Assembly (NCBI GenBank): GCA_026712905.1
Contig: JAPOPM010000153.1
Span: 1-64,000, forward strand
Direction of reading: 5' to 3'
DNA length: 64,000 nt
From: Deltaproteobacteria bacterium
Lineage (GTDB): Bacteria; Desulfobacterota; Binatia; UBA9968; JAJDTQ01
Part shown: in pieces, positions 1 through 40,591 of the stretch
Numbering within the stretch: position 1 is the first letter of the stretch
Layout of the letters: each line of letters begins with the position of its first letter
The notes under the pieces: generated by a model
Told to the model about the DNA's origin: nothing
The model's input: only the letters and a program-made list of their open reading frames with translations
The model's database searches: none
Made by a program: the position numbers and the translations under genes

Positions 1-269
1 CCACGGAACGGCGTCTTGTGCACCGCCTCGTGCTGCAGGCAGAACAGGAACACCAGCAGGATGCCGTGGAGCGGCAGCAGGACCGGCCAGCCGGGCACCT
101 CCAGCAGAATGAGGCTCCCGGTGACCCCGAGCGCCGCCAGGTGGCCGGCAAGGTGGAGAAGGCCCTTGAGATTGGAGCGCTGCAGCAGGCCGCGCCGCTG
201 CTCGCGGCCCAGCCGGCTCACGATATCCGAATGATCGGGCGCCCCGCGCGACGATCCGTAAACGTCCAT
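1..269 (-). CDS. Fatty-acid desaturase family protein (N-terminal part, runs off left edge)
   Basis: The reverse strand from an ATG at 269 is open to the window edge (about 89 residues). The translation has a polar N-terminus, then a hydrophobic hairpin of leucine/valine-rich segments from about residue 40 to 78. It ends in a histidine motif of form HEAVH followed by K-T-P-F, which matches the first histidine box of membrane di-iron fatty-acid desaturases/hydroxylases. A GGGACGGGG stretch lies about 5-10 bases before the ATG; an in-frame ATG at 284 is an alternative start. The remaining histidine boxes would lie outside the window, so substrate and regiospecificity cannot be judged. It is transcribed away from the gene at 362. 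Confidence 0.72.
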   Translation of the reverse strand, partial: MDVYGSSRGAPDHSDIVSRLGREQRRGLLQRSNLKGLLHLAGHLAALGVTGSLILLEVPGWPVLLPLHGILLVFLFCLQHEAVHKTPFR

Positions 270-361
270 CGATCCCCGTCCCATGCGGCGACGGGCTTCG
301 AGCGCCGCCGCTTCCCGGCCCGTATGGGTCCGTACTGAACCCTAACACGGAGGAAACTACG

Positions 362-1354
362 TTGGGAAATCTCTCACTGACTCTGGCCACCGGCCCGTAC
401 GACCGGGTGGAAGCCATTGCGAAAGGCGTCGTCCGGCCTGAAGGCATCGACGTCACCTGCCTGCAGATCCAGTCACCGCCGGAGATTTTCACCCGCATGA
501 TGAAGACCGAGGCCTTCGACCTGTGCGAGATGTCGCTGTCCACCTACCTGACCCGGCGCTCGCGGGGGTCGTTCCCCTTCATCGCGTTACCGGTGTTCCC
601 GTCGCGTCTCTTCCGCCATGCCTACGTCTACGTGAACCGGGATCATGGCATCGCCGAACCCGCCGATCTCAACGGCAAGCGCGTCGGCGTCCAGGAGTAC
701 GGCCAGACGGCGGCCGTTTTGATCCGCGGCATCCTGCAACACCGGCACGGCGTGAACCTCTCCACCATCCGCTGGGTGGAGGGTGGCGTCAACACGCCGC
801 GGCCGCCGGATGACGAGATGGACCTGCGGCCCGCCGGCGCCGTGGACATCGAGCCGGCGCCGCCCGGGAAGTCCATCAACGATCTGCTGGTGGAGGGCGA
901 CATCGTCGCCTATCTCGGCGCCCGGCAACCCGACGCCGTGGGCAGGCATCCTGGCATCGGCAGGCTGTTCCGCGACTACCGGCAGACCGAACGGGAGTAC
1001 TTCCGTGAGACGGGCATCTTCCCCATCATGCACACCATTGTCATGCGGGAGCAGCTCCACGTGGAGCACCCGTGGATCGCCGAGAGCATGTTCAAGGCCT
1101 TCCAGGCGGCCAAGGCGTGGGCGCTGGACCACATGAGCTTTACGGGTGCCATGGCGTACATGGTTCCGTGGCTGAACGCCGAGTTGGATGAAATCCGCGA
1201 GCTGTTCGGCGGTGACCCGTACCCGTACGGTGTGGAAGCCAACCGCGCCGCCCTGGACACGTTCATGCAGTATCTGGTGGAGCAGGGGTTCGTGGCGGAA
1301 CCCAGGCCGCCGCTGGAGAGCCTGTTCACCCCCATCGTCGGGTGGGCGGAGTAG
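362..1354 (+). CDS. 4,5-dihydroxyphthalate decarboxylase-like / NMT1-like binding protein
   Basis: This 330-residue protein resembles the family annotated as 4,5-dihydroxyphthalate decarboxylase, which shares the periplasmic-binding-protein (NMT1/THI5-like) fold. It opens with a strand and the phrase LATGPYDRVEAI, has an E-M-S-L-S-T-Y segment near residue 57, and a domain-crossover stretch D-L-N-G-K-R-V-G-V near 105. There is no signal peptide, so it is probably cytosolic. The start is TTG at 362, chosen because GGAGGAA lies seven bases upstream and the family begins at this point. It is followed by a cupin and a complete TRAP transporter on the same strand, suggesting uptake and degradation of an organic acid or aromatic. 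The actual substrate is unknown, and many relatives are misnamed. Confidence 0.8.
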   Translation: MGNLSLTLATGPYDRVEAIAKGVVRPEGIDVTCLQIQSPPEIFTRMMKTEAFDLCEMSLSTYLTRRSRGSFPFIALPVFPSRLFRHAYVYVNRDHGIAEPADLNGKRVGVQEYGQTAAVLIRGILQHRHGVNLSTIRWVEGGVNTPRPPDDEMDLRPAGAVDIEPAPPGKSINDLLVEGDIVAYLGARQPDAVGRHPGIGRLFRDYRQTEREYFRETGIFPIMHTIVMREQLHVEHPWIAESMFKAFQAAKAWALDHMSFTGAMAYMVPWLNAELDEIRELFGGDPYPYGVEANRAALDTFMQYLVEQGFVAEPRPPLESLFTPIVGWAE

Positions 1355-1377
1355 CGAGGGTTGCGGCACGGCCCCTT

Positions 1378-1423
1378 CCCCGTCACTCCCGGATCCCGGT
1401 GCAAGCCCGGGATGACGGGGCGA
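1378..1423. repeat. Imperfect palindrome related to the REP-like family
   Basis: CCCGTCACTCCCGG and a later CCGGGATGACGGGG form an imperfect inverted repeat just after the stop at 1354. It resembles the GTCATTCCCGC family seen elsewhere in the window but is more diverged. It could also act as a transcription stem between the decarboxylase-like gene and the cupin gene, although no T-run follows. Confidence 0.5.
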
Positions 1424-1453
1424 AGATTACGCCAACGCGCCGTCTGAACCGGC

Positions 1454-1483
1454 TTGACACCCTCGCGGCGGAAGGCGTAGAAG
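1454..1483 (+). promoter_or_regulatory. Putative sigma-70 promoter of the cupin gene
   Basis: TTGACA at 1454-1459 is followed after 18 bases by TAGAAG at 1478-1483. A start point near 1490 would give a leader of about 60 bases before the cupin start at 1550. The -10 box is a weak match. Related repeats in this genome also carry TTGACAC, so a fortuitous match is possible. Confidence 0.4.
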
Positions 1484-1549
1484 GATTCCAATATTCGGGT
1501 TCCCGTGTTCCGCGGCGGACCCAAACTTTGTTTCCGAAGGAGTTGAATC

Positions 1550-2050
1550 ATGAGCCACACGTTAGAGCAGTTCGCCGCTGACTGTCACCGCATCCTCAAG
1601 GCGGAGCCCGGCCCGGAAGGACGCCAGAAAGTCGTTTCACTGGTCGAGGAGATATGCCAGGACGAGGAATTCATCGCCCAGCACGTCGAAGAGGATCAAC
1701 CGGAGCGGAAGGTGATCTACGAGGATTCCGAGCTCGGGTTCTGCATCCTGGCCCACCACAACAAGGGCTCCAAGGGGAGCAATCCCCACGACCACGGTCC
1801 GGCCTGGGCCATCTATGGCCAGGCCTCGGGCGAGACCGAGATGACCGACTGGGAGAAGGTCGAGCCCGCGGACGAAGGCAAGAAGGGCAAGGCCCGCAAG
1901 CTACGCACCTACACCCTCAAACCGGGCATGGCCCATCTGTACAACGAAGGAGACCTTCACTCGCCCTGGCGCGCGGATACCACCAAGCTGATCCGCATCG
2001 AGGGCAAGAACATGGCGAAGGTGAAGCGCTATCCCTACGAGGCCGTCTGA
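1550..2050 (+). CDS. Cupin-fold metal-dependent protein
   Basis: The 166-residue protein has an alpha-helical N-terminus of about 55 residues followed by a cupin barrel. Metal-ligand candidates are visible in N-P-H-D-H-G near residues 83-88 and in G-D-L-H-S-P near 133-138, matching the two conserved cupin motifs (H-x-H and a late H). It resembles the predicted double-stranded beta-helix metal enzymes grouped with cysteine dioxygenase-like proteins. GAAGGAG precedes the ATG by about seven bases. It sits between the decarboxylase-like gene and the TRAP receptor on the same strand and may act on the same compound. No signal peptide is present. The reaction is not assignable from sequence alone. 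Confidence 0.75.
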   Translation: MSHTLEQFAADCHRILKAEPGPEGRQKVVSLVEEICQDEEFIAQHVEEDQPERKVIYEDSELGFCILAHHNKGSKGSNPHDHGPAWAIYGQASGETEMTDWEKVEPADEGKKGKARKLRTYTLKPGMAHLYNEGDLHSPWRADTTKLIRIEGKNMAKVKRYPYEAV

Positions 2051-2100
2051 GCATCCTTGTCCGGGGATTGCGTTCCCCTTAGTACGACCGGAGGTAACCC

Positions 2101-3117
2101 ATGCGTACGAAACCTTTTGTAAGAGTCTCCCTGCTCGCACTCTTGCTCGCCGTCCCCCTGTGGACCCTCACCGCCGCCGCGCCGGCCGACGCCAAGGAGG
2201 TGGTGATCCGCGCCATCTCGGCCTGGCCCCTGAGCATCGACGGCAACACTTGGTACAAGAACTACATCAAGGAAGTGAACAAGCGGGGCAAGGGCGTGGT
2301 GCAGATCCGGCTCCTGGGCGGCAACGAGGTGGCATCCGCGTTCGAGCAGTTCCAGGCCCTGCGCACCGGCATCGCCGACATGACCAACTCCGCGCCCGCG
2401 TACTACGTGGGTGAGACCGTCGAAGCCGCGGCCATGAGCCTGATCGCTCCCGACAGCCTGGAGAAGTACCTGGAGGCCCTGCGCAAGAGCGGCGCCATGG
2501 AGATCATCAACAAGGCCTACCGGGAAAAGTCGGAAATGCGCTTCTTGGGCATCACCGTCGCCGGAACCGGCTTCCGCTTCCTCATGGCCAAGCCCGTCAA
2601 GGACCTCGACGGCATCAAGGGCAAGCGGATCCGGGCCTCGGGCGCCCAGGACGCCGCCGCCATCCAGGCCCTCGGCGGCTCGCCCCAGACCCTCCCGGCC
2701 AACGAGCTGTACACGGCGTTGCAGCGCGGCGTGGTGGACGGCGCCTACCGCGCGCCCAACGACGCCTGGAGCTTCGGCGAACACAAGGTCTACAAGGCCA
2801 TGATCGCCACCCCTATCCAGTTCGCGCCGGGCGGCGTCTACATGCCGACGCGGGCATGGGACAAGCTGGCGGACAACGTGAAGAAGGTGCTGGAGGGGAC
2901 CATCATCGACATGGAACCCGGGATCCTCAAGTACTTCCAGACCAACGATAATGCCGCGATCAAGAGGCTTGAGAAAAACGGCATGAAGGTCATCGAGGTG
3001 GACGACGCCGCCAAGAAGCGGCTGTCCGACGCCCGCAACGCCTACTGGCCCGAGCTGCTCAAGCAATCGCCCAAGTACGGCGCGCAGATCCAGAAGGCCC
3101 TGGCGCCTTACAACTGA
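2101..3117 (+). CDS. dctP: TRAP transporter solute-binding receptor (DctP family)
   Basis: The protein has 338 residues with a clear N-terminal signal (K-P-F-V-R-V, then a leucine-rich core ending A-P-A-D-A-K). The mature part has the DctP-family layout, including F-E-Q-F-Q-A-L-R-T-G near residue 81 and a K-G-K-R-I-R-A-S-G stretch near 175 corresponding to the conserved ligand-anchoring arginine region. GGAGG lies just before the start. The next two genes encode the matching small and large permeases, so this is the periplasmic receptor of a complete secondary TRAP system. Ligands of the family are usually organic acids; nothing here fixes the substrate, though the upstream decarboxylase-like gene favours a carboxylate. 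Confidence 0.9.
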   Translation: MRTKPFVRVSLLALLLAVPLWTLTAAAPADAKEVVIRAISAWPLSIDGNTWYKNYIKEVNKRGKGVVQIRLLGGNEVASAFEQFQALRTGIADMTNSAPAYYVGETVEAAAMSLIAPDSLEKYLEALRKSGAMEIINKAYREKSEMRFLGITVAGTGFRFLMAKPVKDLDGIKGKRIRASGAQDAAAIQALGGSPQTLPANELYTALQRGVVDGAYRAPNDAWSFGEHKVYKAMIATPIQFAPGGVYMPTRAWDKLADNVKKVLEGTIIDMEPGILKYFQTNDNAAIKRLEKNGMKVIEVDDAAKKRLSDARNAYWPELLKQSPKYGAQIQKALAPYN

Positions 3118-3159
3118 TCCGGGCCCTCCGGACCTGATTCTCGGCGGCCGCCGGCCTGC

Positions 3160-3714
3160 ATGGCAGGGCACCCGGGGGCCGCCTCCTCCACCCCCTCCAT
3201 GCTGAATACGCTGAACCGCGCATTCGACCGGACGAACCGCGTGCTGGGCTACGTCTCCGCTTCGTTCGTCGTGGTCATGGCGGTGACCGTTCTCTACGAC
3301 GTGCTCGCCCGCATGCTCTTCGCCGCGCCCACCATCTGGGTCCTCGACATCAACGAATACCTGCTGGTGTACCTCTGCTTCGTTCCGTCCGCCTGGATCC
3401 TCATGAACGACCACCACGTGAAGGTGGAAATCGTCACCGCTCGACTCACGCCGGCATCGCAAGGCAGCCTGCGCATCGTCACCGACTTCCTGGGGCTCAT
3501 CTACTGCGTTGTGCTCGCGTGGCAGGGCTGGGTGGTGGCGTGGCACGCGTTCGAGAACGGCTACCGGTTCTCCACCGCGCTCAACCTGCCGAAGTTCCCG
3601 GTGCTGGTGATCATCCCCATCGGGGCCGCGTGGCTGGGTCTCGCCTTTGTAGTCCGAATCCTCACTGGATCGCACGCGCACCCCGCGACGACTCCCGAGA
3701 AGGGAGGCCTCTGA
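3160..3714 (+). CDS. dctQ: TRAP transporter small permease (DctQ family)
   Basis: The product has about 184 residues with four hydrophobic segments (roughly 30-50, 62-82, 105-125 and 145-165), the size and topology of DctQ proteins. The family signature region W-V-L-D-I-N-E-Y lies in the second segment. The start is uncertain: ATG at 3160 gives a polar leader, ATG at 3199 gives a shorter version, and neither has a strong ribosome-binding site. The stop overlaps the likely start of the large permease, the usual arrangement for translational coupling. It works with the proteins from 2101 and 3711 in the inner membrane. Confidence 0.87.
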   Translation: MAGHPGAASSTPSMLNTLNRAFDRTNRVLGYVSASFVVVMAVTVLYDVLARMLFAAPTIWVLDINEYLLVYLCFVPSAWILMNDHHVKVEIVTARLTPASQGSLRIVTDFLGLIYCVVLAWQGWVVAWHAFENGYRFSTALNLPKFPVLVIIPIGAAWLGLAFVVRILTGSHAHPATTPEKGGL

Positions 3715-5027
3715 TCTTCCTCGAGTGGTGGATCGTTCTGGTCATCATGTTCGGCGCCCTGATCGTGCTCATGGCGTCGGGCATCCCGATCGCGTTCGCG
3801 TTCGGCGTGCTGAACCTCGGGTTCCTTTACGTGTTGGTGGGCCCGGGCGCGGTCCAGGCCATCGCCCTCAGCAGCTTCACGAGCATCGGCACCTTCGCGT
3901 TCATCGCCCTACCGCTGTTCGTGTTGATGGGCGAACTGGTGCTCCACTCGGGGCTGGCCGCCCTCGCCATCACCTCCATCGGCAAGTGGCTGGGCCGGGT
4001 GCCCGGCCGCCTCGCCGTTCTGGCCGTGCTCGCGGGCACGGCGTTCGGCGCCGGCAGCGGCTCCAGCATGGCCAGCTCGGCCACCCTGGGCACGATCCTG
4101 GTGCCGGAGATGCGCAAGCAGGGCTACGACACCGGCCTGGCCGTGGGCACCCTCGCCACCTCCGGGGGGCTCGCGGTGCTGATCCCGCCCAGCGCGCTGA
4201 TGGTTATCTTCGGCGGCATCAGCCAGCTCTCGGTGGGGGATCTCCTGATCGGCGGGATCCTGCCGGGACTGCTGCTGGCGACGCTGCTGTTCGGCTACAT
4301 CGTCATCATCTGCTCTGTCCGGCCGGATCTGGCGCCGGCCGTGGAGCTGGAGAAGGTATCCTGGAGCGAGCGTCTGAATGCGCTCTTGTACTTCCTGCCA
4401 CTGGTGGTGCTGGTGCTGGTGGTGTTGGGCTCGATCTTCATGGGTATAGCCACCCCCAGCGAATCCGCCGCCATGGGCGTGGCGGGAGCCTTCTGCCTGG
4501 CCGTGGCCTACCGGCGCCTGTCGCGGGAGATCCTGCGCAAGGCCCTGCTGGGGACCGTGGAGGTCTCGGGATTCGCTCTGCTCATCGTCACCAGCGCCAC
4601 CGCCTTCAGCCAGATCCTGGCTCACTCCGGCGCCGCCATGGGCCTCTCGACGTTCGCCACCGAGTTGCCCGTCTCGCCGTGGATAATCATCGCCGCCATG
4701 CAGATCGTGATCCTAATCATGGGGGCGTTCATGGAGCCCATCTCCATCATGCTCATCACGGTGCCGATCTTCTTCCCCGTGATCCGCTCCCTGGGCCTCG
4801 ATCCCCTGTGGTTCGCCATCGTCACCATGGTGAACATCGAGCTCTCGCTCATCACCCCGCCCTTCGGCATGAACCTGTTCGTGCTCAAGGGCGTCTCCCC
4901 GCCCGACGTCACCCTCGGCGCCATCTACCGCGGCGTCATCCCCTTCGTCCTGATCAACATCATCGCCCTCGCCCTGGTCATGCTGTTCCCGCCCATCGCC
5001 ATCTGGTTGCCGGGGTTGATGCGGTAG
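3711..5027 (+). CDS. dctM: TRAP transporter large permease (DctM family)
   Basis: From about 3711 to 5027 the frame encodes a 438-residue, twelve-segment DctM protein. Features are an initial M-A-S-G-I-P-I-A-F region, G-S-G-S-S-M-A-S-S-A-T-L-G near residue 110, and T-P-P-F-G-M-N-L-F close to the C-terminus. The frame is open upstream inside the small permease but lacks a good ATG at the expected point. CTG at 3711 (overlapping the dctQ stop as CTGA, with AGGGAGG just before) or ATC at 3714 places translation at the family's usual N-terminus. ATG at 3747 would cut into the first membrane segment. The start is therefore inferred, the identity is secure. Confidence 0.88.
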   Translation: MIFLEWWIVLVIMFGALIVLMASGIPIAFAFGVLNLGFLYVLVGPGAVQAIALSSFTSIGTFAFIALPLFVLMGELVLHSGLAALAITSIGKWLGRVPGRLAVLAVLAGTAFGAGSGSSMASSATLGTILVPEMRKQGYDTGLAVGTLATSGGLAVLIPPSALMVIFGGISQLSVGDLLIGGILPGLLLATLLFGYIVIICSVRPDLAPAVELEKVSWSERLNALLYFLPLVVLVLVVLGSIFMGIATPSESAAMGVAGAFCLAVAYRRLSREILRKALLGTVEVSGFALLIVTSATAFSQILAHSGAAMGLSTFATELPVSPWIIIAAMQIVILIMGAFMEPISIMLITVPIFFPVIRSLGLDPLWFAIVTMVNIELSLITPPFGMNLFVLKGVSPPDVTLGAIYRGVIPFVLINIIALALVMLFPPIAIWLPGLMR

Positions 5028-5233
5028 GACGCACGCTTCCCACTCTCACTCTCACCTTCGGTCGACGCGCCGCCGCCGTGTGCGCTGAAATGCGCGCCGT
5101 TTTCGCGAAATGCGCACGCCATGCGCGGAAATGCCCGGGGAAACCCTCATCGTTGTTCGCAAACAGCCGGTTTGCCGACAGATCGGGGGTACACTTGAAG
5201 TAGAGGCTGAATGAACGAAGAGGGAGGAACCGA

Positions 5234-5623
5234 ATGAAACGCGTGCTCATTGCCCTTGCGGCGGCATTTCTTCTCGCGACGATGACCATGGCGGCAGCCC
5301 ATGCGGCCTGCGAGTGGCGACACCGAATTTCCCATCGTGAATCCGAATGCCTGTCGGCCGAATGGAAGAACAGCAAGCCGCTAATGACCCTACCATCGCG
5401 TAATTGGGTGACCGCCCAGAGCTCCTGTTCCGATCTCGGCAGGGTCGCGGTGAAAATCGACTTGAAAGGCGAAATGGACCGGACCTGGCACCTCAACGAC
5501 AACCACACGCGGCGCGGCGAATACTCCGCGAAGATCAGAGGCGTCTACTGTTGCCGCGACCTCGGCGTGTGCCACAGACCGCGCCAGGACACGGCCCGGG
5601 CTCCGGTTACAGGTGTAGAATGA
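5234..5623 (+). CDS. Secreted six-cysteine protein of unknown function, copy 1
   Basis: The 129-residue product begins with a typical Sec signal (M-K-R-V-L-I-A-L-A, cleavage after A-H-A-A). The mature domain of about 90 residues has six cysteines, in C-E-W, S-E-C, S-S-C, Y-C-C and G-V-C contexts, plus conserved N-W-V-T-A-Q-S-S-C and D-R-T-W-H-L blocks. I do not recognise the family. The next gene (5687-6037) is a close paralogue with every cysteine conserved, showing a recent tandem duplication under selection. A C-terminal tail after R-P-R is absent from copy 2. GAGGGAGGAACC provides a strong ribosome-binding site. Likely exported and disulfide-bonded; role unknown. Confidence 0.75.
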   Translation: MKRVLIALAAAFLLATMTMAAAHAACEWRHRISHRESECLSAEWKNSKPLMTLPSRNWVTAQSSCSDLGRVAVKIDLKGEMDRTWHLNDNHTRRGEYSAKIRGVYCCRDLGVCHRPRQDTARAPVTGVE

Positions 5624-5686
5624 AATCAAGGAGGAAATTCAAAAAGGGGGAATGCGTAAGACTCTCGAGAGAAGAGGAGGAACAAC

Positions 5687-6037
5687 ATGAGACGAACCCT
5701 GCCCATCCTTGTAGCTGTATTCGCCGTCTCGGCGATAATGGCGGGCTCTGCCCTTGCAGCCTGTGAGTGGAAGCACCGGATTCCCCATGGTGACTCCGAA
5801 TGCCTGACAGCCAAATGGAAAAACCACAATGCAGTGTTGGGACACCCGAAGAATTGGGTAACCGCCCAGAGCTCCTGTTCCGGTCTCGGCAGGGTCGTGG
5901 CGAAAATCGATCTGGTACATTCCGATGACCGGACCTGGCACCTCCACGGCGACAACGTACGGCGTGGCGAGTACACCGCCAGCATCAGACACGTCTACTG
6001 CTGCAAAGACCTCGGCGTGTGCCGGAGGCCGCGCTAG
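5687..6037 (+). CDS. Secreted six-cysteine protein of unknown function, copy 2
   Basis: The 116-residue paralogue of the gene at 5234 has a signal peptide ending near S-A-L-A-A, then C-E-W-K-H-R-I-P-H. The same six cysteines and the N-W-V-T-A-Q-S-S-C and D-R-T-W-H-L blocks recur, and the protein ends directly after R-R-P-R. Identity to copy 1 is high in the mature part and lower in the signal, the pattern expected for a structured secreted domain. AGAGGAGGAACAAC precedes the ATG, so each copy has its own strong ribosome-binding site. The 63-base gap suggests co-transcription. Function is not assignable. Confidence 0.75.
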   Translation: MRRTLPILVAVFAVSAIMAGSALAACEWKHRIPHGDSECLTAKWKNHNAVLGHPKNWVTAQSSCSGLGRVVAKIDLVHSDDRTWHLHGDNVRRGEYTASIRHVYCCKDLGVCRRPR

Positions 6038-6104
6038 GGACAGGCGTTACTCCGAAATCGGGCCGCGTGGCCCGGGGCGTACCGCCACGACCGCGCCCCC
6101 GGCG

Positions 6105-7094
6105 CTAGCCCGCCGCAACCTTGGGCAGCACCTCCTCCGCCATCATCGCCATGGATTCGAGGATGCTCTTCTGGTCGAGGCCAGCGAAGTTCATGGAGAA
6201 GATGACATAGTTGGCGCCGGTGTCGGCAATCTCCTGGATCTGCTCGATACAACGGGCGGGGCCGCCGACCATGAGCATGCGCTGTTCGTCGAGCTCGTCG
6301 TAGCCGCGGGGACGTACGGACTTGCGCGCCTCGTAGTAGCGGCTCATGGCGGGTCGGGCGCGGCGTCGGGCGGCGGCGTCGGACTCGGCCACGTGGGTAT
6401 GGATGGTTTGGCCCACGTCCAGCGTGGCGGGGTCGTGGCCGTTTTGGCTCAGGGTCTCCTTGTAGAAGTCCACCTTGCGCTTCACTTCGGCCATGTCCTT
6501 GCAGCTCGCGAAGGGGATGCCGAGGATAGGATAACCGCGCTCGCCGGCCACCTGGTAGGAGCCCTGGCTCAGGGCGGCGAAGTACACGGGCGGCAGCGGC
6601 CGCTGGACCGGCTGCACGTTCAGCGACACGTCGTCGATGTGATGGAACTGTCCCTGGTACGACACCCGCCCCTCGCACCAAGCCATCTCCACGACTTCGA
6701 GGCTCTCCACCAGCCGGTCCCGGTTGTCCTCCTTGACCCCGAACCCGACCAACTCCGGCGGCGTGCCGCGCCCCACCCCGAAGTCGAGCCGGCCGCCGCT
6801 GAGCACGTCGATCATGGCGTACTCTTCGGCCGTGAGGATGGGGTCCCGGTAGGGCAGCAGCGCCACGGCGACTCCCAGGCGGATGGTACTGGTACACGTG
6901 GCGGCGGCGGACATGAGCACCGTGGGCGACGGGATGACGCCGTGGAAGTCGAAGTGGTGCTCACCGAACCAGAAGCACTCGTATCCCAGCGACTCTCCCC
7001 ACCGCACCTGTTCCAGCATCCTCTCGTAGTAGCCCTTGAGGTCAAGCTGAAGCTCGGGGTCGTCGTCTCCGATGATGAACAAGCCGAATTTCAC
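6105..7094 (-). CDS. LLM-class flavin-dependent oxidoreductase (bacterial luciferase-like)
   Basis: The 329-residue protein has the luciferase-like TIM-barrel pattern: V-K-F-G-L-F start, W-F-G-E-H-H-F near residue 43, a T-I-R-L-G-V-A-V strand near 70, and L-S-G-G-R-L-D-F-G-V-G-R-G near 98. These are typical of FMN- or F420-using LLM enzymes. The start is GTG at 7094, with AGAGGG about six bases upstream; the frame is open further but residues before this point do not fit the family. It is divergent from the sox/fcc operon, and a roughly 95-bp gap separates them. Substrate unknown; the closest functional relatives are alkanal monooxygenase-like proteins. Confidence 0.85.
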   Translation of the reverse strand: MKFGLFIIGDDDPELQLDLKGYYERMLEQVRWGESLGYECFWFGEHHFDFHGVIPSPTVLMSAAATCTSTIRLGVAVALLPYRDPILTAEEYAMIDVLSGGRLDFGVGRGTPPELVGFGVKEDNRDRLVESLEVVEMAWCEGRVSYQGQFHHIDDVSLNVQPVQRPLPPVYFAALSQGSYQVAGERGYPILGIPFASCKDMAEVKRKVDFYKETLSQNGHDPATLDVGQTIHTHVAESDAAARRRARPAMSRYYEARKSVRPRGYDELDEQRMLMVGGPARCIEQIQEIADTGANYVIFSMNFAGLDQKSILESMAMMAEEVLPKVAAG

Positions 7095-7109
7095 GGGCAC
7101 CCTCTTTCG

Positions 7110-7136
7110 TTGCGGTTTTCCAACGTCTACTATAAA
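7110..7136 (+). promoter_or_regulatory. Possible promoter of the sox/fcc operon
   Basis: TTGCGG at 7110-7115 and TATAAA at 7131-7136 lie in the divergent gap between the LLM gene and soxY. The 15-base spacing is short. The TATAAA box is the clearest AT-rich element upstream of soxY. Confidence 0.3.
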
Positions 7137-7190
7137 TACGGATCGCGAGGCGCGACAAGCCGTGTCGCACCGGGTCGAAAACATCCAAAC

Positions 7191-7625
7191 ATGAACACCA
7201 CACGCAGGGAAATACTTTCTTTGGCAGGCGCATCGCTGGCCGCGCTGGCGGCCAGTTTGGCCGGTTTCCTTCCCGTCCGCGTTGCCCGGGCGGCCAATGA
7301 GACGTCGCGCGCCATCGCGGCGTTCACCAAGGGGACGGTGCCGGCCGAGGGCGGCGTCCTGCTCGAAGCGCCCGAGATCGCCGACAACGGCGGCGCCGTG
7401 CCGATCCGGGTCGCCGCCGAGGGCGCCCGGCGCATCGCCGTGTTCGCGGACGGCAATCCGAGTCCCGGCGTGGCCGTCTTTACCTTCGGAAAGTGGATCA
7501 CGCCGGCGGCGTCGACCCGCATCCGGCTGGCCCGGAGCCAGAAGCTCATCGCCGTCGCGGAAATGTCCGACGGCACGTTTCGCACGACCTCCCGCCCGAT
7601 CAAGGTGACGGCGGGCGGTTGCTAG
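7191..7625 (+). CDS. soxY: SoxY sulfur-carrier protein with cysteine as last residue
   Basis: The 144-residue protein starts with a twin-arginine type signal (T-R-R-E-I-L-S-L-A-G) ending near A-R-A-A-N. The mature beta-sandwich carries the SoxY pattern, and the chain ends V-T-A-G-G-C followed directly by TAG. Canonical SoxY ends G-G-C-G-G, where the cysteine carries the sulfur substrate; here the two final glycines are missing, so the cysteine is C-terminal. SoxY works with SoxZ in the periplasm, and soxZ follows nine bases later. No SoxAX, SoxB or SoxCD genes are nearby; the partners present are a dihaem cytochrome and FccB, pointing to sulfide or polysulfide chemistry rather than the full thiosulfate cycle. 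Confidence 0.85.
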   Translation: MNTTRREILSLAGASLAALAASLAGFLPVRVARAANETSRAIAAFTKGTVPAEGGVLLEAPEIADNGGAVPIRVAAEGARRIAVFADGNPSPGVAVFTFGKWITPAASTRIRLARSQKLIAVAEMSDGTFRTTSRPIKVTAGGC

Positions 7626-7633
7626 GTGCAGGA

Positions 7634-7963
7634 ATGCAGAAACCCAGACCGCGCGTGAAACTGCCGAAGTCGGTGTCCGTGGGCGTTCCTTTCACGGTCC
7701 GGACCCGGATTACCCATCCCATGCACACCGGGCTCCGCCTCGGCCGTGACGGCAAACGAATTCCGCGCCGGATCATCAACCGGTTCGTGGTGCGCTACAA
7801 CGGGGAGGAGACGATCTCCGTGGACCTCGAGCGGGCGGTATCCGCCGACCCGTACTTCAGTTTCGAGATGGCTGTCCGGGAGTCGGGCGAGATGGAATTC
7901 GAATGGCTGGATGACGACGGCTCGACATACCGCCTCAGCAGGCGGATCGAGGTCAAGCCGTGA
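7634..7963 (+). CDS. soxZ: SoxZ, thiosulfate-oxidation carrier partner
   Basis: The 109-residue product matches SoxZ in length and pattern: a P-R-V-K-L-P start, V-P-F-T-V-R-T-R-I-T-H-P-M-H-T-G, then R-I-I-N-R-F-V-V-R-Y and a final F-E-W-x-D-D-D-G motif. The ATG at 7634 is chosen because the family begins here and GCAGGA lies nearby. The frame stays open upstream within soxY, but that stretch is not SoxZ-like. It has no signal peptide and is probably co-exported with SoxY through the Tat route, as known for SoxYZ. It precedes the dihaem cytochrome gene by 22 bases. Confidence 0.87.
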   Translation: MQKPRPRVKLPKSVSVGVPFTVRTRITHPMHTGLRLGRDGKRIPRRIINRFVVRYNGEETISVDLERAVSADPYFSFEMAVRESGEMEFEWLDDDGSTYRLSRRIEVKP

Positions 7964-7985
7964 CGTTGCCGAAGCCCGACACCGG

Positions 7986-8708
7986 ATGACACGCTTGACC
8001 AGGTCCGAAGGTTTCGCGGTACTTGCGTTCGGACTTCTCGCCCTTCTTGTCGCCACCGGAGCCCGCGGCGCGGACCCGCAACGGGGCAACGCGCTCTACC
8101 AGGAGTGCAAGCGCTGCCATCAGGCCGGCCGCGGCGCGAAGCACCGCATCGGCCCGCACCTCAACGACATATTCGACCGCCGCGCCGGCTCGCTCTCGGA
8201 TTTCCGCTACTCTTCGGCCATGAGAAAAGCCGGAGAAGCCGGGCTGGTCTGGACCAAGGCGACGCTGGACGCCTTTCTGACCAACCCCCGGAAGATGGTG
8301 CCGCGTTCGCGCATGAGCTATGAGGGCATGGCGGCGTCCCGCGACCGGATGGACCTGCTGGCGTGGCTGCGCACCCTTTCGGGGTCCCGGACCGGGCTTC
8401 CGGTGGCGGAACCGACCATGACGATTGACGAATTCGGCCTCGACCCGCGGGTCCTCGATGCCGCGGGAGATCCCGAATACGGCGCCTATCTGGCGAGCGA
8501 GTGCACCACCTGCCACCGGCCCGACGGGGCCGATGAGGGCATACCTTCCATTGTCGGTTGGCCCGTCGATGACTTCGTGATAACCCTACAAGCCTACAAA
8601 CGCGGCAAACGGCGGCACCAGGCCATGCAGACCATCGCCAAGCGTTTGTCGAACGAAGAGATTGCCTCGCTCGCCGTGTATTTTGGCAGACCGCTCGCCG
8701 GTCCGTGA
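7986..8708 (+). CDS. Dihaem cytochrome c, FccA-like with fused cytochrome c2-type domain
   Basis: The 240-residue protein has a Sec signal ending near A-R-G-A and two haem-binding motifs, C-K-R-C-H at residues 41-45 and C-T-T-C-H at 173-177. The first domain looks like a class I cytochrome c2 (G-P-H-L-N-D-I-F-D-R, then F-R-Y-S-S-A-M). The second resembles the small cytochrome domain of flavocytochrome c sulfide dehydrogenase (I-P-S-I-V-G-W-P, A-Y-K-R-G-K-R, then L-A-V-Y-F-G). Its position directly before fccB supports a role as the electron-accepting FccA subunit, taking electrons from the flavin in the periplasm. A SoxX-like role is less likely. Confidence 0.83.
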   Translation: MTRLTRSEGFAVLAFGLLALLVATGARGADPQRGNALYQECKRCHQAGRGAKHRIGPHLNDIFDRRAGSLSDFRYSSAMRKAGEAGLVWTKATLDAFLTNPRKMVPRSRMSYEGMAASRDRMDLLAWLRTLSGSRTGLPVAEPTMTIDEFGLDPRVLDAAGDPEYGAYLASECTTCHRPDGADEGIPSIVGWPVDDFVITLQAYKRGKRRHQAMQTIAKRLSNEEIASLAVYFGRPLAGP

Positions 8709-8723
8709 GAAGGGGAGACCCAG

Positions 8724-10010
8724 ATGAAGAAAAGCAACGAAGACCGCGGAATGACCCGGCGCCGCTTCCTGACAACGACGGTGGCGGCATCGACGGCGCT
8801 GTGGGCGACTCCCATCCTCGGGCAAAAACGCCCGCGGGTGGTGGTGATCGGCGGCGGCGCCGGCGGCGCCACGGCCGCGCGTTACATCGCCAAGGATTCG
8901 AAAGGGGCCGTCGACGTGACCCTGGTGGAGCCCACCCGGCGCTATTACACGTGCTTTTTCTCGAACCTCTACCTCGGCGGCTTCCGTGAGTTCGCGTCCA
9001 TCGGGCACGGCTACGGAACCCTGGCCGCCGCCTACGGCATCAACGTCGTCCACGACTGGGCCGTCTCCATCGACCGGGACAAGAAAACCGTAGGGCTCGC
9101 CGGCGGCGGCAGCCTTGCCTACGACCGGCTGGTGCTGTCTCCGGGCATTGACTTCCGCCCGGGTTCGGTGCGCGGCTGGGACCTGTCGCAGCAGAACCGG
9201 ATGCCGCATGCCTACAAGGCAGGCTCGCAAACCGAAGTCCTCAAGGCGCAGGTCGCGGCCATGCGGAAGGGCGGTGTCTACTGCATGGTAGCGCCGCCGA
9301 ACCCGTTCCGTTGCCCGCCGGGACCGTACGAACGGATCTCGATGGTGGCCCACACGCTGAAGCAGACCAATCCGACCGCGAAGATCCTGATCGTCGACCC
9401 GAAGGCGAAGTTCTCCAAGCAAGGGCTCTTCGAGGAAGGCTGGCAGCGCCACTACCCCGGTATGGTCGAGCGGGTGGGCCCGGACTTCGGCGGCGACAAG
9501 GTCGAAGTGCGCCCCGGCTCCATGGAGGTGGTGATCGACGGCGAGGTGACCAAGGTGGACGTCTGCAACGTCATTCCGGCGCAGCAGGCGGGACGCATCG
9601 CCGCGGTGGCGGGGCTCACGAACAAGGCCGGGTGGGCTCCGGTAGTGCCCCACACCATGCAAAGCCGGGCGGATGAGAACATCCACGTGCTCGGCGACTC
9701 GTCGCAGCAGGGGGATATGCCCAAGTCCGGGTTCTCCGCCAACAGCCAGGCCAAGGTGTGCGCCATGGCGGTGCGCGGGGCGCTGACCAGCTCGAAGGTG
9801 TTTCCGGCGCGCTTCTCCAACACCTGCTGGTCGCTCATCGCAACCGATGACGGAGTCAAGGTCGGCGCCTCCTACCAGGCCACCGACGAAAAGATCGCCA
9901 AGACCGACGGGTTCATTTCGAAGACCGGAGAGAGCGCCGAAATGCGCAAGGCGACCTACAAGGAATCGCTCGGCTGGTACGCGGGCATTTCCAAGGACAT
10001 GTTCGGCTGA
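8724..10010 (+). CDS. fccB: Flavocytochrome c sulfide dehydrogenase flavoprotein subunit
   Basis: The 428-residue protein carries a Tat signal (M-T-R-R-R-F-L-T-T-T at residues 10-19), a Rossmann FAD motif V-V-V-I-G-G-G-A-G-G-A-T-A-A near 40, and a sulfide-dehydrogenase flavin-binding C-terminus. Cysteines in N-P-F-R-C-P-P-G-P-Y and S-N-T-C-W-S-L-I-A fit the positions of the redox-active pair described for FccB. Family members oxidise sulfide and pass electrons to the cytochrome subunit, here encoded 15 bases upstream. GGGGAG lies upstream of the ATG. A sulfide:quinone reductase is the alternative, but Tat export and the adjacent cytochrome favour FccB. Confidence 0.9.
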   Translation: MKKSNEDRGMTRRRFLTTTVAASTALWATPILGQKRPRVVVIGGGAGGATAARYIAKDSKGAVDVTLVEPTRRYYTCFFSNLYLGGFREFASIGHGYGTLAAAYGINVVHDWAVSIDRDKKTVGLAGGGSLAYDRLVLSPGIDFRPGSVRGWDLSQQNRMPHAYKAGSQTEVLKAQVAAMRKGGVYCMVAPPNPFRCPPGPYERISMVAHTLKQTNPTAKILIVDPKAKFSKQGLFEEGWQRHYPGMVERVGPDFGGDKVEVRPGSMEVVIDGEVTKVDVCNVIPAQQAGRIAAVAGLTNKAGWAPVVPHTMQSRADENIHVLGDSSQQGDMPKSGFSANSQAKVCAMAVRGALTSSKVFPARFSNTCWSLIATDDGVKVGASYQATDEKIAKTDGFISKTGESAEMRKATYKESLGWYAGISKDMFG

Positions 10011-10029
10011 TGGCGAGGGCGCGGAGGGG

Positions 10030-10194: not shown

Positions 10195-11363
10195 CCCAGG
10201 GGTGCCGATCTTCGCTTCATCAACAGAAAAAGTCTTCCCTCGCTCTGCATGTAACCTGCCCGCGCTCCGGCCGCGGCGCCGGTGCCGAAGTAGAGGTCGG
10301 CGCGCCCCGGGCCGCGGATGGCCGCTCCCGAATCCTGGTTGACCACGAACCGCCGCACCGTACGCCAGCCCGCCAGCGCACCGCTCTCGTCCACCACGGG
10401 GGTCCGGGTCTCCACGTACAGCAACGCGCCCTTGGGGTAGACCGCGGGATCGGTGGCCACCGAGCGCCCGGCGGTCAACGGCACGCCGAGGCTCCCGAGC
10501 GGACCCTCTTCCCCAAGCCGGAAGAAGATGTAGCGCTCGTTGCGCGCGAACAGCGCCTCCCGCTCCTCCGGGAACTCCGCCAGCCAGGCGCGAATGCGCT
10601 GCATGGACATGGACTCCCGGTCCACCTTGCCCTCGTCGATCAGCACCTTGCCGATGCTGGTGTAGGGCCGGCCGTTGGAGGCGGCGAAGTTGAGCGGCAG
10701 CTCGCGCCCGTCGGTCATGCGCAGGAGCCCGGAGCCCTGGATGTGCAGGAAGAACCGGTCCACCGGGTCCCGCAACCACGCGATCTCGTGACCCTTGCCT
10801 CCGAGCACCCCCGATACGTCGATTTCGTAACGCGACGGGTGCGTGGCCGCGGTCGTCGACCCCTCCGTACCGGCCCGCGCGCCCGTCGCCTCGGGTTCCC
10901 GGTACACCGGGTAGCGGTATTCATCCGTGCGCACCGTGCTCGCATCGATCACCGGCTGGTAGTAGCCGGTGAACAGGACCGCGTTCCCCGCTGGCCGCGC
11001 CGGGGCGGGATGAAACTCGAACCGTTGCGCCACCCGGTCGAGCCAGGACCCGTCCGCCTCCGTCGTGCGCTCCAGGATCTCGAGGAACTCGGCCAGCGAC
11101 GAACGCAGTTCCGCGGCCGTCACCGCCCGGGGCCACTCGCCCAACCGCGCCTCTCGCGGCACCTTGTGAAGAAACCGCAGGCTCTCCGTCACGGCTCGGC
11201 GGAGGGATTGCGCTTCCAGATCGTCACTGATCGCTTCCGGCGCCGCGGGCAGTGGGCCTCCCTGCTGGAGGCCGCATCCGACGAGCAGCACAAGCGCCGA
11301 CAGCGCCATCAGGAAACACGCCCGTGGCGCGCCGGTCCGCCGGACGCCTTTGTCGACCGCCAT
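10191..11363 (-). CDS. mltA: Membrane-bound lytic murein transglycosylase A
   Basis: From the ATG at 11363 the product has 390 residues with a lipoprotein signal (hydrophobic core ending L-V-G-C, lipidated Cys30). The MltA domain includes F-T-G-Y-Y-Q-P-V-I-D-A, and the C-terminal 3D domain shows V-N-Q-D-S-G-A-A-I-R-G-P-G-R-A-D with the conserved aspartates expected for catalysis. MltA cleaves peptidoglycan glycan strands to 1,6-anhydromuropeptides at the outer membrane. The frame opens further upstream into the neighbouring gene, but the lipobox fixes the likely start. The stop codon lies in the terminal CTAG of the repeat element at 10030-10194. Confidence 0.9.
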   Translation of the reverse strand: MAVDKGVRRTGAPRACFLMALSALVLLVGCGLQQGGPLPAAPEAISDDLEAQSLRRAVTESLRFLHKVPREARLGEWPRAVTAAELRSSLAEFLEILERTTEADGSWLDRVAQRFEFHPAPARPAGNAVLFTGYYQPVIDASTVRTDEYRYPVYREPEATGARAGTEGSTTAATHPSRYEIDVSGVLGGKGHEIAWLRDPVDRFFLHIQGSGLLRMTDGRELPLNFAASNGRPYTSIGKVLIDEGKVDRESMSMQRIRAWLAEFPEEREALFARNERYIFFRLGEEGPLGSLGVPLTAGRSVATDPAVYPKGALLYVETRTPVVDESGALAGWRTVRRFVVNQDSGAAIRGPGRADLYFGTGAAAGARAGYMQSEGRLFLLMKRRSAPLG

Positions 11364-11425
11364 CCGCGTCACGGACACGGGCCGGCTTGAAACCCGCCTC
11401 GGCACGGTTGTCCCCGGACCCCGCC

Positions 11426-12514
11426 TCAGTCCCGAATGTCCTGTGTGAACCACTCCGTGGGCAGCTCGCGCCCCTTCCCCTTCTCTCTCGCCATCTGGTA
11501 GACGCGGCCGGCGCAGGCGGCGAACTGGAGACCCTGGGTGCCGGCGTTGATGAAGAAGGTGGTCTGGTCGTCATTCGTCCGGCCCGGCTGCCGGCCGAGC
11601 TTCACATCGATGAAGTAGTGGAAGTAGTCCCCGGTATAATTGTCCTGCACCGGGTTCGGGATGCGCGCGATCTCCTCGGGCTGGCCGGCCACGTAGCCCA
11701 CGTTGCCGTGAAGCCGCACCATGCCCTCGTCCGTCGTCACCACCGTGTTGCGCCCGAGCTTGACGGACACGCCGCAGACCTCCACCACCCGGGGGCCGAT
11801 CTCGCAGGCGCGCACGCAGGTGACATGGGCGCCGCGCTTGAGCCACTCGGGATTGTCGAACACCACCCGCGTGGAATCCGTGCACGCCGAAATGATGTCC
11901 GCCCCGCGCACCACGTCCTCGGGCCGGTCCATGGCCGTGACCTTGAGCCCCAGCATCTCGCTCATCTTCCCCGCATACCGCTCCCGGTTGGCCTTGGTGG
12001 GGCTGTAGACCCGCACTTCGTCGAGCTTCCGCACTTCGTTGAACGCCATGAGATAGGTCTCGGCCATGCCGCCCGAGCCGAACATGCCCACCACCGAGGC
12101 GTCCTCGCGCGCCAGCATCTTGGCGCCCAGCCCGGCGCACCCGCCCACGCGCATGTGCTGCAGCACCCCGTCGTTGATGATGGCCAGGGGCTCGCCGTTG
12201 GCTATGCTGAAGACCATGATGAGCCCGCAGTAGTTGCCCGGCTCCATGCAGTACTTCTCCTCGGTGTCGCCGCCGGGCCAGTGCACGATGTCGGACTTCA
12301 TGCGGATGGCGAACGTGCCGATGGTGCGGCTCGCGCCCTCCATGGTACCCCAGCGGTAGTAACCGTCCGGCCGCTCGCACGGCACCCACACGTCGAGCCG
12401 CGGCCGGTACACCGCATCGTTGCGCGCGAGGTCCTCGTAACCCGTCTCCAGCGCTTCGAGACAGGCCTTCATGTCCATCAGCTCTTCGACTTCCTGGTTG
12501 TTGATAAGCAGCAT
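11426..12514 (-). CDS. Ornithine cyclodeaminase / mu-crystallin family protein
   Basis: The 362-residue protein has the family's N-terminal dimerisation part (L-L-I-N-N-Q-E-V-E-E-L-M), a substrate-side M-R-V-G-G-C-A-G-L-G-A segment near 122-132, and a Rossmann motif V-G-M-F-G-S-G-G-M-A near 142-151. Members are NAD(P)-dependent cyclodeaminases, amino-acid or imine dehydrogenases, or the tyramine-oxidase accessory protein. An internal insertion around residues 45-100 (W-V-P-C-E-R-P-D-G-Y-Y-R-W) sets it apart from classical ornithine cyclodeaminase and is shared with members of uncertain substrate. It is upstream of mltA on the same strand. The precise reaction is not assignable. Confidence 0.82.
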   Translation of the reverse strand: MLLINNQEVEELMDMKACLEALETGYEDLARNDAVYRPRLDVWVPCERPDGYYRWGTMEGASRTIGTFAIRMKSDIVHWPGGDTEEKYCMEPGNYCGLIMVFSIANGEPLAIINDGVLQHMRVGGCAGLGAKMLAREDASVVGMFGSGGMAETYLMAFNEVRKLDEVRVYSPTKANRERYAGKMSEMLGLKVTAMDRPEDVVRGADIISACTDSTRVVFDNPEWLKRGAHVTCVRACEIGPRVVEVCGVSVKLGRNTVVTTDEGMVRLHGNVGYVAGQPEEIARIPNPVQDNYTGDYFHYFIDVKLGRQPGRTNDDQTTFFINAGTQGLQFAACAGRVYQMAREKGKGRELPTEWFTQDIRD

Positions 12515-12732
12515 ACGTGTTCCTTCCGATGAATGGGTTGCGCAAGTTCAGATGTACCTATCCCGACAGCGTCCACTTCGCAGACCGTCGCATACGTAGA
12601 CGCCCACGCCCTACCCCGATTGCGAGTAGGACCGCAAACTCACCCTACGCATCCAAACCCAACCACTGAGAGCACCAAAGACTCCCCCCGCCCTGAAAGC
12701 ACCTTCCTCTGGCAATACCGCACCGAAAGCGG
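12515..12732. other. Intergenic region at the edge of the DUF262/HEPN cassette
   Basis: This gap separates the cyclodeaminase-like gene from the HEPN gene. Base composition drops in GC compared with neighbours. A short forward open frame here (12533-12781) has no recognisable motif and runs over the HEPN 3' end, so it is not called. No terminator or repeat was seen. Confidence 0.4.
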
Positions 12733-13383
12733 CTACTGGGAACCTGCACGTCGAAAACGACCTGTCGCTGCTGCATTCTGAACGTCGTTGTTGAAACGTT
12801 CCACTAATTCGACGACCTCCAGTTGCAGTCCTTCATAGTCCTCCGCCTGTAGTTCCGTTCTTCCACCATGCGCGATCTCGTTTCGATTCGCTAGTAGTTT
12901 CCGATCCAAGAGAACGCCTTTCGACAGGTAGTCCCCTTCATCCAGTCCCAAAAGAGCAAGAATTTCTCTCAGCCGATCCAGGTTGACATTAGACTGTTTT
13001 GGCACAACTTTCCCTGGTTCAATCTCGAGTCTGTCTCCCGAATCTGTCATCAATTTCTCAACCAGGCCGTTATGAATAGTAGGTCGTTCTGTTTGACCGG
13101 CCTTGACAATCTCCCGCCGCAGCGCCAGCGCCACAAAATTCGGCGCCAAGTCGCGGTATCTCAAGCCCTGGTTGGCCACGAAGGTCACGTACCCCGTCGT
13201 AGCTGTCTGTACAAATCCTTCCCAGTGCGCGTAGAGAAGGCATATTGCCGCCCGAAGCAACGCTTCCGTTTGGTGAGCCCGTCGATTGGCGAGCATGAAC
13301 TTCACAGTGGTCAGCTCACGTTTTCGCCAGCCTACGTCCTTATCCAGGACGTCGACGAGTTGACTGAGAGTCCGTATGGTCAT
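12733..13383 (-). CDS. HEPN-domain protein, MAE_28990-like putative ribonuclease
   Basis: The 216-residue, mostly helical protein carries R-N-E-I-A-H at residues 167-172, the R-x4-H signature of catalytic HEPN ribonucleases. It also has the A-H-W-E-G-F-V-Q motif near 52-59 typical of the MAE_28990/MAE_18760-like HEPN family. HEPN proteins of this type are associated with RNA cleavage in toxin and anti-phage modules. The start overlaps the stop of the DUF262 gene by four bases (13380-13383), indicating tight co-expression. Codon use is less GC-biased than flanking genes, which suggests horizontal acquisition. Nuclease activity is inferred, not shown. Confidence 0.8.
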   Translation of the reverse strand: MTIRTLSQLVDVLDKDVGWRKRELTTVKFMLANRRAHQTEALLRAAICLLYAHWEGFVQTATTGYVTFVANQGLRYRDLAPNFVALALRREIVKAGQTERPTIHNGLVEKLMTDSGDRLEIEPGKVVPKQSNVNLDRLREILALLGLDEGDYLSKGVLLDRKLLANRNEIAHGGRTELQAEDYEGLQLEVVELVERFNNDVQNAAATGRFRRAGSQ

Positions 13384-14495
13384 ACCGCGAACAGTTCACG
13401 CCCGAGCGGGACGTTTGACCGCAGGCGGACCCTTGTGTTCACGCCCATTCCGCTGTTGTCCAAAAACTTCTGGTTGCTCCACAAGGCTCGGACCCTTTTC
13501 CCCATCTCAAGAGAGTCCGTCTCTCCGTGGTACGAATCCGCATGGTACCCGATCCCAAACGCTATCGGCTCGAAGGCAGAGATCAAGAAACCCCCGCGAT
13601 ACTTATCCCGTGTTGTGTCAAATCTACGGAAGCTATGTTCCCCAAGCGATTCTGCGAGACACCGAAAGGTTGATCGAAACGCCTTTTCTTCAGTCTTACG
13701 TATTCTCTTGAAGCTTCGTGGTTCCGCAAGCTGGGTAATACGCTCCGTAAGAAATTCGCCGATATCGCCGACTTGCTTGATGTCCTCCTCTCCGAGCTGT
13801 CGAAAAACCAAAAACCGCGTCACCAATTCCAGATTGAATTGTTCGCTCAACATTCTGTCCGACAATGCCACGCAGGATTGGAAGTTTTCATCTTCCGCCA
13901 AATCTTCTATCCAGCGATAAGCATCAGCATTTACCATTATTAAGATTACGTTCCTGACCTCTTGATCGGAGAGCGGTGAACCGCCGGTGTTGAGGCGTTG
14001 AAACAGCTCGTACTTACTCGATTCGCTGCTTTCGCGTAGCATTATCTTGACATCAATCTTCGAACGTCTGACAACAAGGCGATTGGTGGTCCCAATAGAC
14101 GACGTTTCGTCCGTTCCATTTTCCCACTTCTTACCCTCCAGCGAAGGCAAATACCTTGTTTTCTTGAGAGTCAATGGCGGTAGTTCTTCGCCCTTTTGGT
14201 CTTTGAGAATGCCGACCAACTCGAAGATAGTGGAAAGCCGTTGTAGCCCGTCAATTACGTCCCACACGCCGTCATCCCTTTGGGAAACGAAGATCGAAGG
14301 GATGGGAATCCCCAAGAGGATTGACTCTACAAGGCGCGATTTTTGCTCTTCGCTCCATCGAAAGAATCGTTGAAACTCAGGGTGTATATCTAACTCATTA
14401 TCGCGGTAGAGGTTGATGAGTTCCCCGATAGACATGGGGTAGCCATCACTACGTACTTCAGCGCGGCGAGCGCTTATTTCCTCATCAAGACTCAT
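13380..14495 (-). CDS. DUF262-domain protein (GmrSD-like ParB/Srx-fold NTPase)
   Basis: From the ATG at 14495 (AGGAG seven bases upstream) the product has 371 residues. The N-terminal half is a DUF262 domain: I-H-P-E-F-Q-R-F-F-R-W at about 37-47, I-L-L-G-I-P-I-P-S-I-F at 59-69 and I-D-G-L-Q-R-L-S-T at 81-89. In GmrS-type proteins this domain binds nucleotide and is linked to restriction of modified phage DNA. The C-terminal part lacks an evident DUF1524 H-N-H nuclease, so cleavage may be supplied by the overlapping HEPN gene. Together they look like a compact two-gene defence or toxin module. The longer upstream reading (to 14690) lacks family similarity. Confidence 0.83.
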   Translation of the reverse strand: MSLDEEISARRAEVRSDGYPMSIGELINLYRDNELDIHPEFQRFFRWSEEQKSRLVESILLGIPIPSIFVSQRDDGVWDVIDGLQRLSTIFELVGILKDQKGEELPPLTLKKTRYLPSLEGKKWENGTDETSSIGTTNRLVVRRSKIDVKIMLRESSESSKYELFQRLNTGGSPLSDQEVRNVILIMVNADAYRWIEDLAEDENFQSCVALSDRMLSEQFNLELVTRFLVFRQLGEEDIKQVGDIGEFLTERITQLAEPRSFKRIRKTEEKAFRSTFRCLAESLGEHSFRRFDTTRDKYRGGFLISAFEPIAFGIGYHADSYHGETDSLEMGKRVRALWSNQKFLDNSGMGVNTRVRLRSNVPLGRELFAV

Positions 14496-14702
14496 TCTGT
14501 TACTCCTAGGGTCCCTTAGTTTAGTCGGACCCGCTACGTATCCAAGTATTCTTAGGAACCTTACCCTCTTGCTGAGACCGTCCAAAACACCAACTATTCC
14601 GTTCTTGCGCGGGAACCAATAACATGAACTCACGAGGGAGGCGCGGCGGGGAATCACAGAGGCCTTCGTGCCCGCGGCCCTTACGGGCACCAGGCGCTGA
14701 AG
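14496..14702. other. Divergent intergenic region beside the DUF262 gene
   Basis: The region between the divergently transcribed DUF262 gene and the M24 gene has mixed composition. No RNA gene, attachment site or convincing open frame was found. The promoter of the DUF262/HEPN pair should lie here, but no strong -35/-10 pair was recognised on the reverse strand. Confidence 0.35.
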
Positions 14703-14731
14703 TTGCTGTACCCGGTGTTGACCGGTACACT
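14703..14731 (+). promoter_or_regulatory. Putative sigma-70 promoter for the M24 peptidase-like operon
   Basis: TTGCTG at 14703-14708 and TACACT at 14726-14731 are separated by 17 bases and lie 38 bases before the ATG at 14770. Spacing and boxes are good. The predicted transcript would begin near 14738. Confidence 0.5.
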
Positions 14732-14769
14732 ATCCTTTCAACAGTAGCTATGCCGCGAAGCTTCAAGAC

Positions 14770-15882: not shown

Positions 15883-15900
15883 CGGATCCACGGAGCCAAG

Positions 15901-17058: not shown

Positions 17059-17148
17059 CGGGGACCTTGTCCTTGGGATGGCATTGAAGCCCGTGACCGT
17101 CATTGCCGTCAGAGCGGGAATGTCGGTTTGAAGCGTCGGATTCACACC

Positions 17149-18258: not shown

Positions 18259-18306
18259 GCCACCGGTACGAACAAGACCGAAACACGCCCATTTAGCCCC
18301 TCCCCG

Positions 18307-18698
18307 CCCCTGGATTCCCGCTTTCCAAGCTGTGTCACAACTGATGGGCACAGCCCCTTCGATTCGTCATTCCCGCGGAACAGGCTGTGCCAAGACTGCT
18401 GAGACGCCGCCCCACGATTCGTCATTCCCGCGGAACAGGCCGTGTCAAGACTGCTGAGGCGCCGCCCCACTATTCGTCATTCCCGCGGAACAGCCTGTGC
18501 CAAGACTGCTGAGGCGACGCCCCCCGATTCGTCATTCCCGCGGAAGCGGGAATCCAGGGGCGGTGGAGGGGTGCTACAGCGACGCTCCCCCGCCTCACCA
18601 CCCCTGGATTCCCGCTTCCGCGGGAATGACGAATCGGGGGGTTTGGCGCCGGTTCTTGTCCGGACCACGTTTTGACACGGCCTGCTCCGCGGGAATGG
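18307..18698. repeat. Composite REP/BIME-like module A
   Basis: This module fills most of the gap 18259-18756. It begins with a degenerate half-repeat (CCTGGATTCCCGCTTTCC), continues through a 55-bp tandem array starting at 18361, then a long inverted repeat at 18520-18641. It closes with an inverted half-repeat (TTGACACGGCCTGCTCCGCG). The same architecture recurs at 39404-39632 and 49729-50027. It has no coding content. Confidence 0.85.
18361..18525. repeat. 55-bp tandem repeat, three copies
   Basis: Units start at 18361, 18416 and 18471, each opening with ATTCGTCATTCCCGCGGAAC after the first base and including CAAGACTGCTGAG. A fourth unit start at 18526 passes into the inverted repeat. The copies differ at only a few positions, indicating recent amplification. 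All bases belong to the unit, so there are no spacers as in CRISPR. Confidence 0.85.
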
Positions 18699-18756
18699 CG
18701 CCAGAGGGGCTTTCGTCTTCTTTCATTCCCGTCTCGGTTGTTCTACTCTGTCGGCC

Positions 18757-19731: not shown

Positions 19732-19763
19732 AAGGCCTCTAAACTATATAAAACTGGTGGGTT

Positions 19764-40561: not shown

Positions 40562-40591
40562 ATCGAAGAAGTCGTGGGGCGACGCACTCTC

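Follow-up and report, generated by a model that had tools for sequence, protein, structure and literature searches.

A real, selected, tandem pair of orphan genes occupies a variable slot near the left end of the window, i.e. the whole stretch of 64,000 nucleotides of deltaproteobacterial DNA analysed here, a result which will hold little surprise for specialists of accessory genomes. Both genes lie on the + strand and are separated by a spacer of 63 bases. The first one (5234..5623) encodes a protein of 129 amino acids, consisting of an apparent signal peptide, a six-cysteine domain of 93 residues and a 12-residue tail, and the second one (5687..6037) encodes a protein of 116 amino acids with an apparent signal peptide and a six-cysteine domain of 92 residues. 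An initial annotation of this DNA had described two adjacent six-cysteine genes at this place, whose mature domains share all six cysteines as well as the sequence blocks NWVTAQSSC and DRTWHL; the genes lie at the given coordinates, and domain sizes of 92-93 residues and the shared elements are found in both copies, the two blocks being free of any difference.

Duplication and selection on the reading frame

The pair is a tandem, in-place duplication of one gene. Over their full length the two proteins are 59% identical (69 of 117 alignment columns), and the mature parts reach 66%. All six cysteines, located at positions 2, 15, 41/40, 82/81, 83/82 and 89/88 of the mature domains, and all four tryptophans are common to both copies; given 61 identical columns out of 92, the chance of all these residues being shared is 0.0125, which on its own is a weak test. 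Of the 25 signal-peptide positions 16 differ between the copies, as do 13 of the 29 positions that follow and 18 of the remaining 62; the longest run of differences, as judged by eye, is located in the stretch from WKN to NW. The first gene reads 12 codons beyond the stop of the second one (by eye), giving the 12 extra residues of its product. Both genes are preceded by a good ribosome-binding site, and both apparent signal peptides combine a hydrophobic core with an AHA or ALA end directly before ACEW, features which were likewise read by eye. The mature domains are cationic, with calculated pI values of 9.27 and 9.24 and a charge of about +6. Being even in number, the six shared cysteines would fit a Sec-exported disulphide protein, although both export and disulphides are inferred from the sequence.

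Purifying selection acts on the sense frame of the pair, and the coding reading is sound. In 348 aligned positions, 101 base changes have led to only 47 amino-acid differences and to no stop codon, whereas random simulations (n = 2000) gave a mean of 61.1 ± 3.5 residue changes and 2.8 stops, with none of the 2000 runs being as low as 47. Among the six frames, the sense frame alone is free of stops in either gene. Antisense frame -2 is also below expectation (49 changes, 0 of 500 simulations as low), and antisense frame -1 somewhat so (54 changes, 22 of 500 as low), but each of these contains stops in at least one gene. For the mature part, dN/dS was calculated to be 0.53 using NG86 or 0.38 using YN00.

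The slot between dctM and the monooxygenase gene

On its left side, the pair is flanked by the gene of a TRAP transporter large subunit DctM (PF06808; 3519..5027, + strand, with the real start probably near 3720 as read by eye), and on its right side by a gene for a luciferase-like monooxygenase (PF00296; 6105..7184, - strand), which is convergent with dctM. Using a 3.4-kb query covering this locus, matches were obtained in 8 of the 9 genomes of the genus including its own; one genome (G008) gave weaker matches only and one (G006) none. The dctM/monooxygenase pair was found at seven other loci, six of them in congeners (G001, G002, G003, G004, G005, G007) and one on another contig of the same assembly (C100), and at all seven the homology breaks off at the dctM stop codon, or no more than a few bases from it, and sets in again next to the stop codon of the monooxygenase gene. 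What lies in between differs greatly in length and content. The smallest fillers comprise 51 bases (G001) and 158 bases (G007), followed by one of 471 bases (G005) with nothing named, in which the one open reading frame tested has no Pfam match, and one of 554 bases (C100) with a 148-residue open reading frame of no Pfam family. The filler of G003 (1,421 bases) carries genes for a nucleotidyltransferase, a HepT-like protein and a 208-residue protein without family, that of G002 (5,308 bases) genes for a hydrolase, a GMC oxidoreductase, a protein without family and a PhoD-like protein. By far the largest one, of 11,947 bases in G004, holds HepT-like, PLD-like (below the Pfam cut-off), HATPase and helicase genes together with SspD, SspC, SspB and SspA, amounting to a phosphorothioation-type SspABCD anti-phage defence system of about 12 kb (L062, 1808-13340). 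The filler in the window (5029..6115; 1,087 bases) matches none of the seven others, and in all 28 pairwise filler comparisons (E 0.01) only those of G003 and G004 share DNA, namely 639 bases of 89% identity at the left end. With flanks conserved and fillers differing, this place is therefore an exchange slot between two convergent genes, and the six-cysteine pair is its cargo here.

The G+C content of the insert is 0.606, and of the two-kb blocks of the window 29 of 32 are at or above 0.63 and only two at or below 0.606; this low value suits acquisition but is no proof of it. No repeat pairs were found to flank the insert. Apart from the gene duplication itself, the repeats within it are a 20-base imperfect tandem (5087-5126), a palindrome (5092-5119) as well as a weak inverted pair of 15 bases (5888/6083). 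A search of Rfam gave no match within the window, promoter-like sites were not found, and two terminator-like sites were observed versus 1.7 expected.

In its variable content between conserved flanks the slot resembles the hotspots of defence islands, all the more as congeners carry SspABCD and HepT/nucleotidyltransferase genes in it, whereas the filler of the window is an apparently exported orphan pair without any PADLOC match.

A part of contig C100 (L068 and L069, about 10887-20359) is approximately 83% identical to positions 3-10011 of the window and contains the different slot filler mentioned above. This second version of the locus, about 10 kb in length, is either a segmental paralogue or the result of two strains having been binned together. 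For window positions 40000-44000, the best second match in the assembly is 77% over 1.4 kb.

Relatives, known families and structure models

A protein search of its own genome returned these two genes and one weak match containing stops, and a search of 58 genomes (its own and 57 relatives, 8 of which are congeners) gave its own genome and one weak match with an internal stop. Profile searches were extended to the class (148 genomes), where 15 genomes besides its own showed weak matches with E-values of 0.002-0.1, and to the phylum (395 genomes), where four did so with E-values of 0.001-0.008. Further profile searches from other centres, covering 277, 257, 63, 3 and 395 genomes at cut-offs of 0.005, 0.005, 0.001, 0.001 and 0.001, yielded 0, 2, 0, 0 and 0 matches, respectively, the two having E-values of 3.8e-4 and 0.005; the last draw of 395 genomes adds little because its totals equal those of the phylum search. 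Altogether, about 1,077 genomes were covered. The translated frames of the 24 listed weak genome matches (18 and 6, two of the latter marking one and the same place) were read, and all were judged by eye to be due to chance. Of these, the most promising (L007 in G107) is out of frame within another open reading frame with a signal-like start, and the one with the best E-value (L065, 3.8e-4) lies out of frame in an apparent transporter gene.

Pattern scans covered IMG/VR as well as 84,980 species genomes. Among the genomes, 74 stretches were hit by two peptide patterns from the N-terminal part, none of which was confirmed, and a pattern of the spacing that fits both window genes hit 7 stretches, none of them related by eye; pattern matches at 9 loci of the genome and viral sets, and at 1 further locus, were again judged by eye to be chance. 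No relative was detected in the viral contigs, nor in phage records using the second protein as only query. Against plasmids, the second protein gave a single piece of 33% identity over 48% of its length at an E-value of 0.9, and the first one nothing. The pattern scans demand exact conserved residues, each genome contributes only a restricted set of scored candidates to the genome searches, and the closest kin of this genome may be missing from the collections; a very divergent family may exist. Regarding its distribution across related genomes, which the initial annotation had proposed to check, the pair was found in its own genome only, the class and phylum matches being judged chance, and it is considered an orphan seen in one genome. 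That no relatives were found is as expected for cargo of fast turnover.

In Pfam and NCBIfam (limit E 10) no family was found, the sole stray matches, both of the second protein and far under cut-off, being DUF2961 (E 0.058) and 4-epi-cubebol synthase (E 0.063), respectively. PADLOC returned no family for either protein at E ≤ 0.001, PHROGs none besides four stray matches at E 0.066-0.44, and no mention of four peptide blocks from the pair was found in the literature. The designation as tandem secreted paralogues of unknown family is upheld by these results, none of the profile searches having clearly placed the pair in a characterised family.

Structure prediction, also suggested at the outset, gave AlphaFold models too poor to use: two-sequence runs started from either paralogue reached pLDDT values of 48.6 and 48.9. 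Both models consist mainly of strands, of which about three are shared (around residues 34-39, 46-54 and 75-82), and otherwise differ; hence, a designation as beta-rich is weak, with models of pLDDT about 49 agreeing on only some three strands. Searching the PDB by Foldseek with these poor models gave nothing at E ≤ 0.001; with the limit at E 10, there were 9 and 86 matches.

Possible functions

Tentatively, and with somewhat less than even confidence, we regard the pair as accessory cargo of the variable slot, coding for small, disulphide-stabilised, exported binding proteins that were duplicated in place. According to this proposal, each gene would give rise to a small cationic protein leaving the cytoplasm by the Sec route, as its signal peptide suggests, which after signal cleavage before ACEW would fold in the periplasm or extracellularly and might form up to three disulphide bonds from the six conserved cysteines. 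The export signal together with the conserved cysteines points to a protein that is folded, carries disulphides and resides outside the cytoplasm. The product would be a compact, possibly beta-rich module that binds, and perhaps blocks, an extracellular polysaccharide or protein. Binding is taken as the likeliest action because the domain is so small, cationic and without a recognised catalytic family, and duplication in place, giving two versions with differing loops, would fit two versions of a binding protein. The proteins may act as effectors, adhesins or inhibitors, as listed in the initial annotation. From their location no single role can be derived because other fillers of the slot include metabolic-type genes, such as the cargo of G002; a role in conflict with phages or competitors is possible given what the slot carries elsewhere. 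Lineage-specific small secreted cysteine-rich proteins form a general class, and the pair shares with them the signal peptide, the small size, the six cysteines, the tandem paralogy and the lack of detected outside relatives, but differs in having no sequence match to a named family in Pfam, NCBIfam, PADLOC or PHROGs.

For an orphan in such a variable place, a short lifetime and little function are also conceivable. Recently acquired foreign genes which currently do little and are heading for loss would be seen in one genome only, as the pair is, at a place where contents turn over, and the 12 codons by which the first gene overruns the stop of the second one (by eye) would agree with this. 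However, although 101 of 348 bases differ, the frame, the signal peptides, all cysteines and the ribosome-binding sites have been kept and selection on the sense frame is significant. We regard this explanation as unlikely.

Still rather improbable, in our estimate, are two more specific roles. Secreted antibacterial (bacteriocin-like) toxins, i.e. small cationic disulphide proteins harming competitors, would agree with the small size, the export signal and the pI of about 9.2, and congeners do carry SspABCD and toxin-antitoxin-type genes in the same slot; yet, by eye, the insert of 1,087 bases has no recognisable genes other than the two paralogues, with no immunity or secretion gene beside them and no known toxin family in Pfam, NCBIfam or PHROGs. 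Given the same low probability, periplasmic or secreted inhibitors of enzymes such as proteases or lysozymes, present in two versions with different reactive loops, would suit the size, the cysteine content and the strong divergence of the WKN-to-NW stretch (by eye), but no inhibitor family is matched in Pfam or NCBIfam, and the winged-bean inhibitors among the Foldseek matches have E-values of at least 0.9 and a query TM below 0.2, from a poor model. Improbable as well is the possibility that the two proteins are the first of a family with a novel small disulphide fold, serving as cargo of a hotspot which in congeners carries anti-phage and toxin-antitoxin genes, and that they would act extracellularly against phages or competitors, e.g. 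by covering receptors or blocking enzymes.

Very improbable, finally, is a shortened C-type-lectin-like domain binding sugar or protein. Its starting point is the helix motif WxxAxxxCxxxG, on which, in a PDB profile search up to E 10, all five alignments of the mature profile are centred (NKG2D, codakine and three chains of CD69, E 0.062-0.31), at lengths of 33-41 residues; the full profile gave six chains of NKG2D, codakine and CD69 at E 0.12-0.59. The three proteins, which we take to belong to the C-type-lectin-like class, are cysteine-rich and exported, as the pair itself appears to be, but the likeness to the WxxAxxxC motif is local and not significant. A C-type-lectin-like domain measures some 110-130 residues and has another disulphide loop downstream of the motif, whereas the mature domains comprise 92-93, and the 48 residues that follow the motif's glycine are too few for the fold. 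Moreover, the calcium-site triplets EPN, QPD or WND are absent (by eye), Pfam Lectin_C is not listed at limit E 10 (at which the HMMER filters nevertheless discard most matches above about 0.1), and among the best 50 Foldseek matches of a poor model one lectin chain appears, at rank 42 with E 6. To our knowledge, the cysteine spacing of 2, 15, 40, 81, 82 and 88 fits no C-type-lectin-like domain.

The pair, selected and compact, offers a clean small target for expression and structure work. New extracellular functions arise in part from orphan secreted genes at sites of content swapping within a genus. The slot between dctM and the luciferase-like monooxygenase gene is a usable marker for finding more cargo, including SspABCD, in this lineage. 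Elsewhere in the window, adjacent HEPN (PF18737) and GmrSD_N (PF03235) genes on the - strand (12733-14690) have the appearance of a small island of defence or toxin-antitoxin genes, the G+C content at 12001-14000 being low (0.563).
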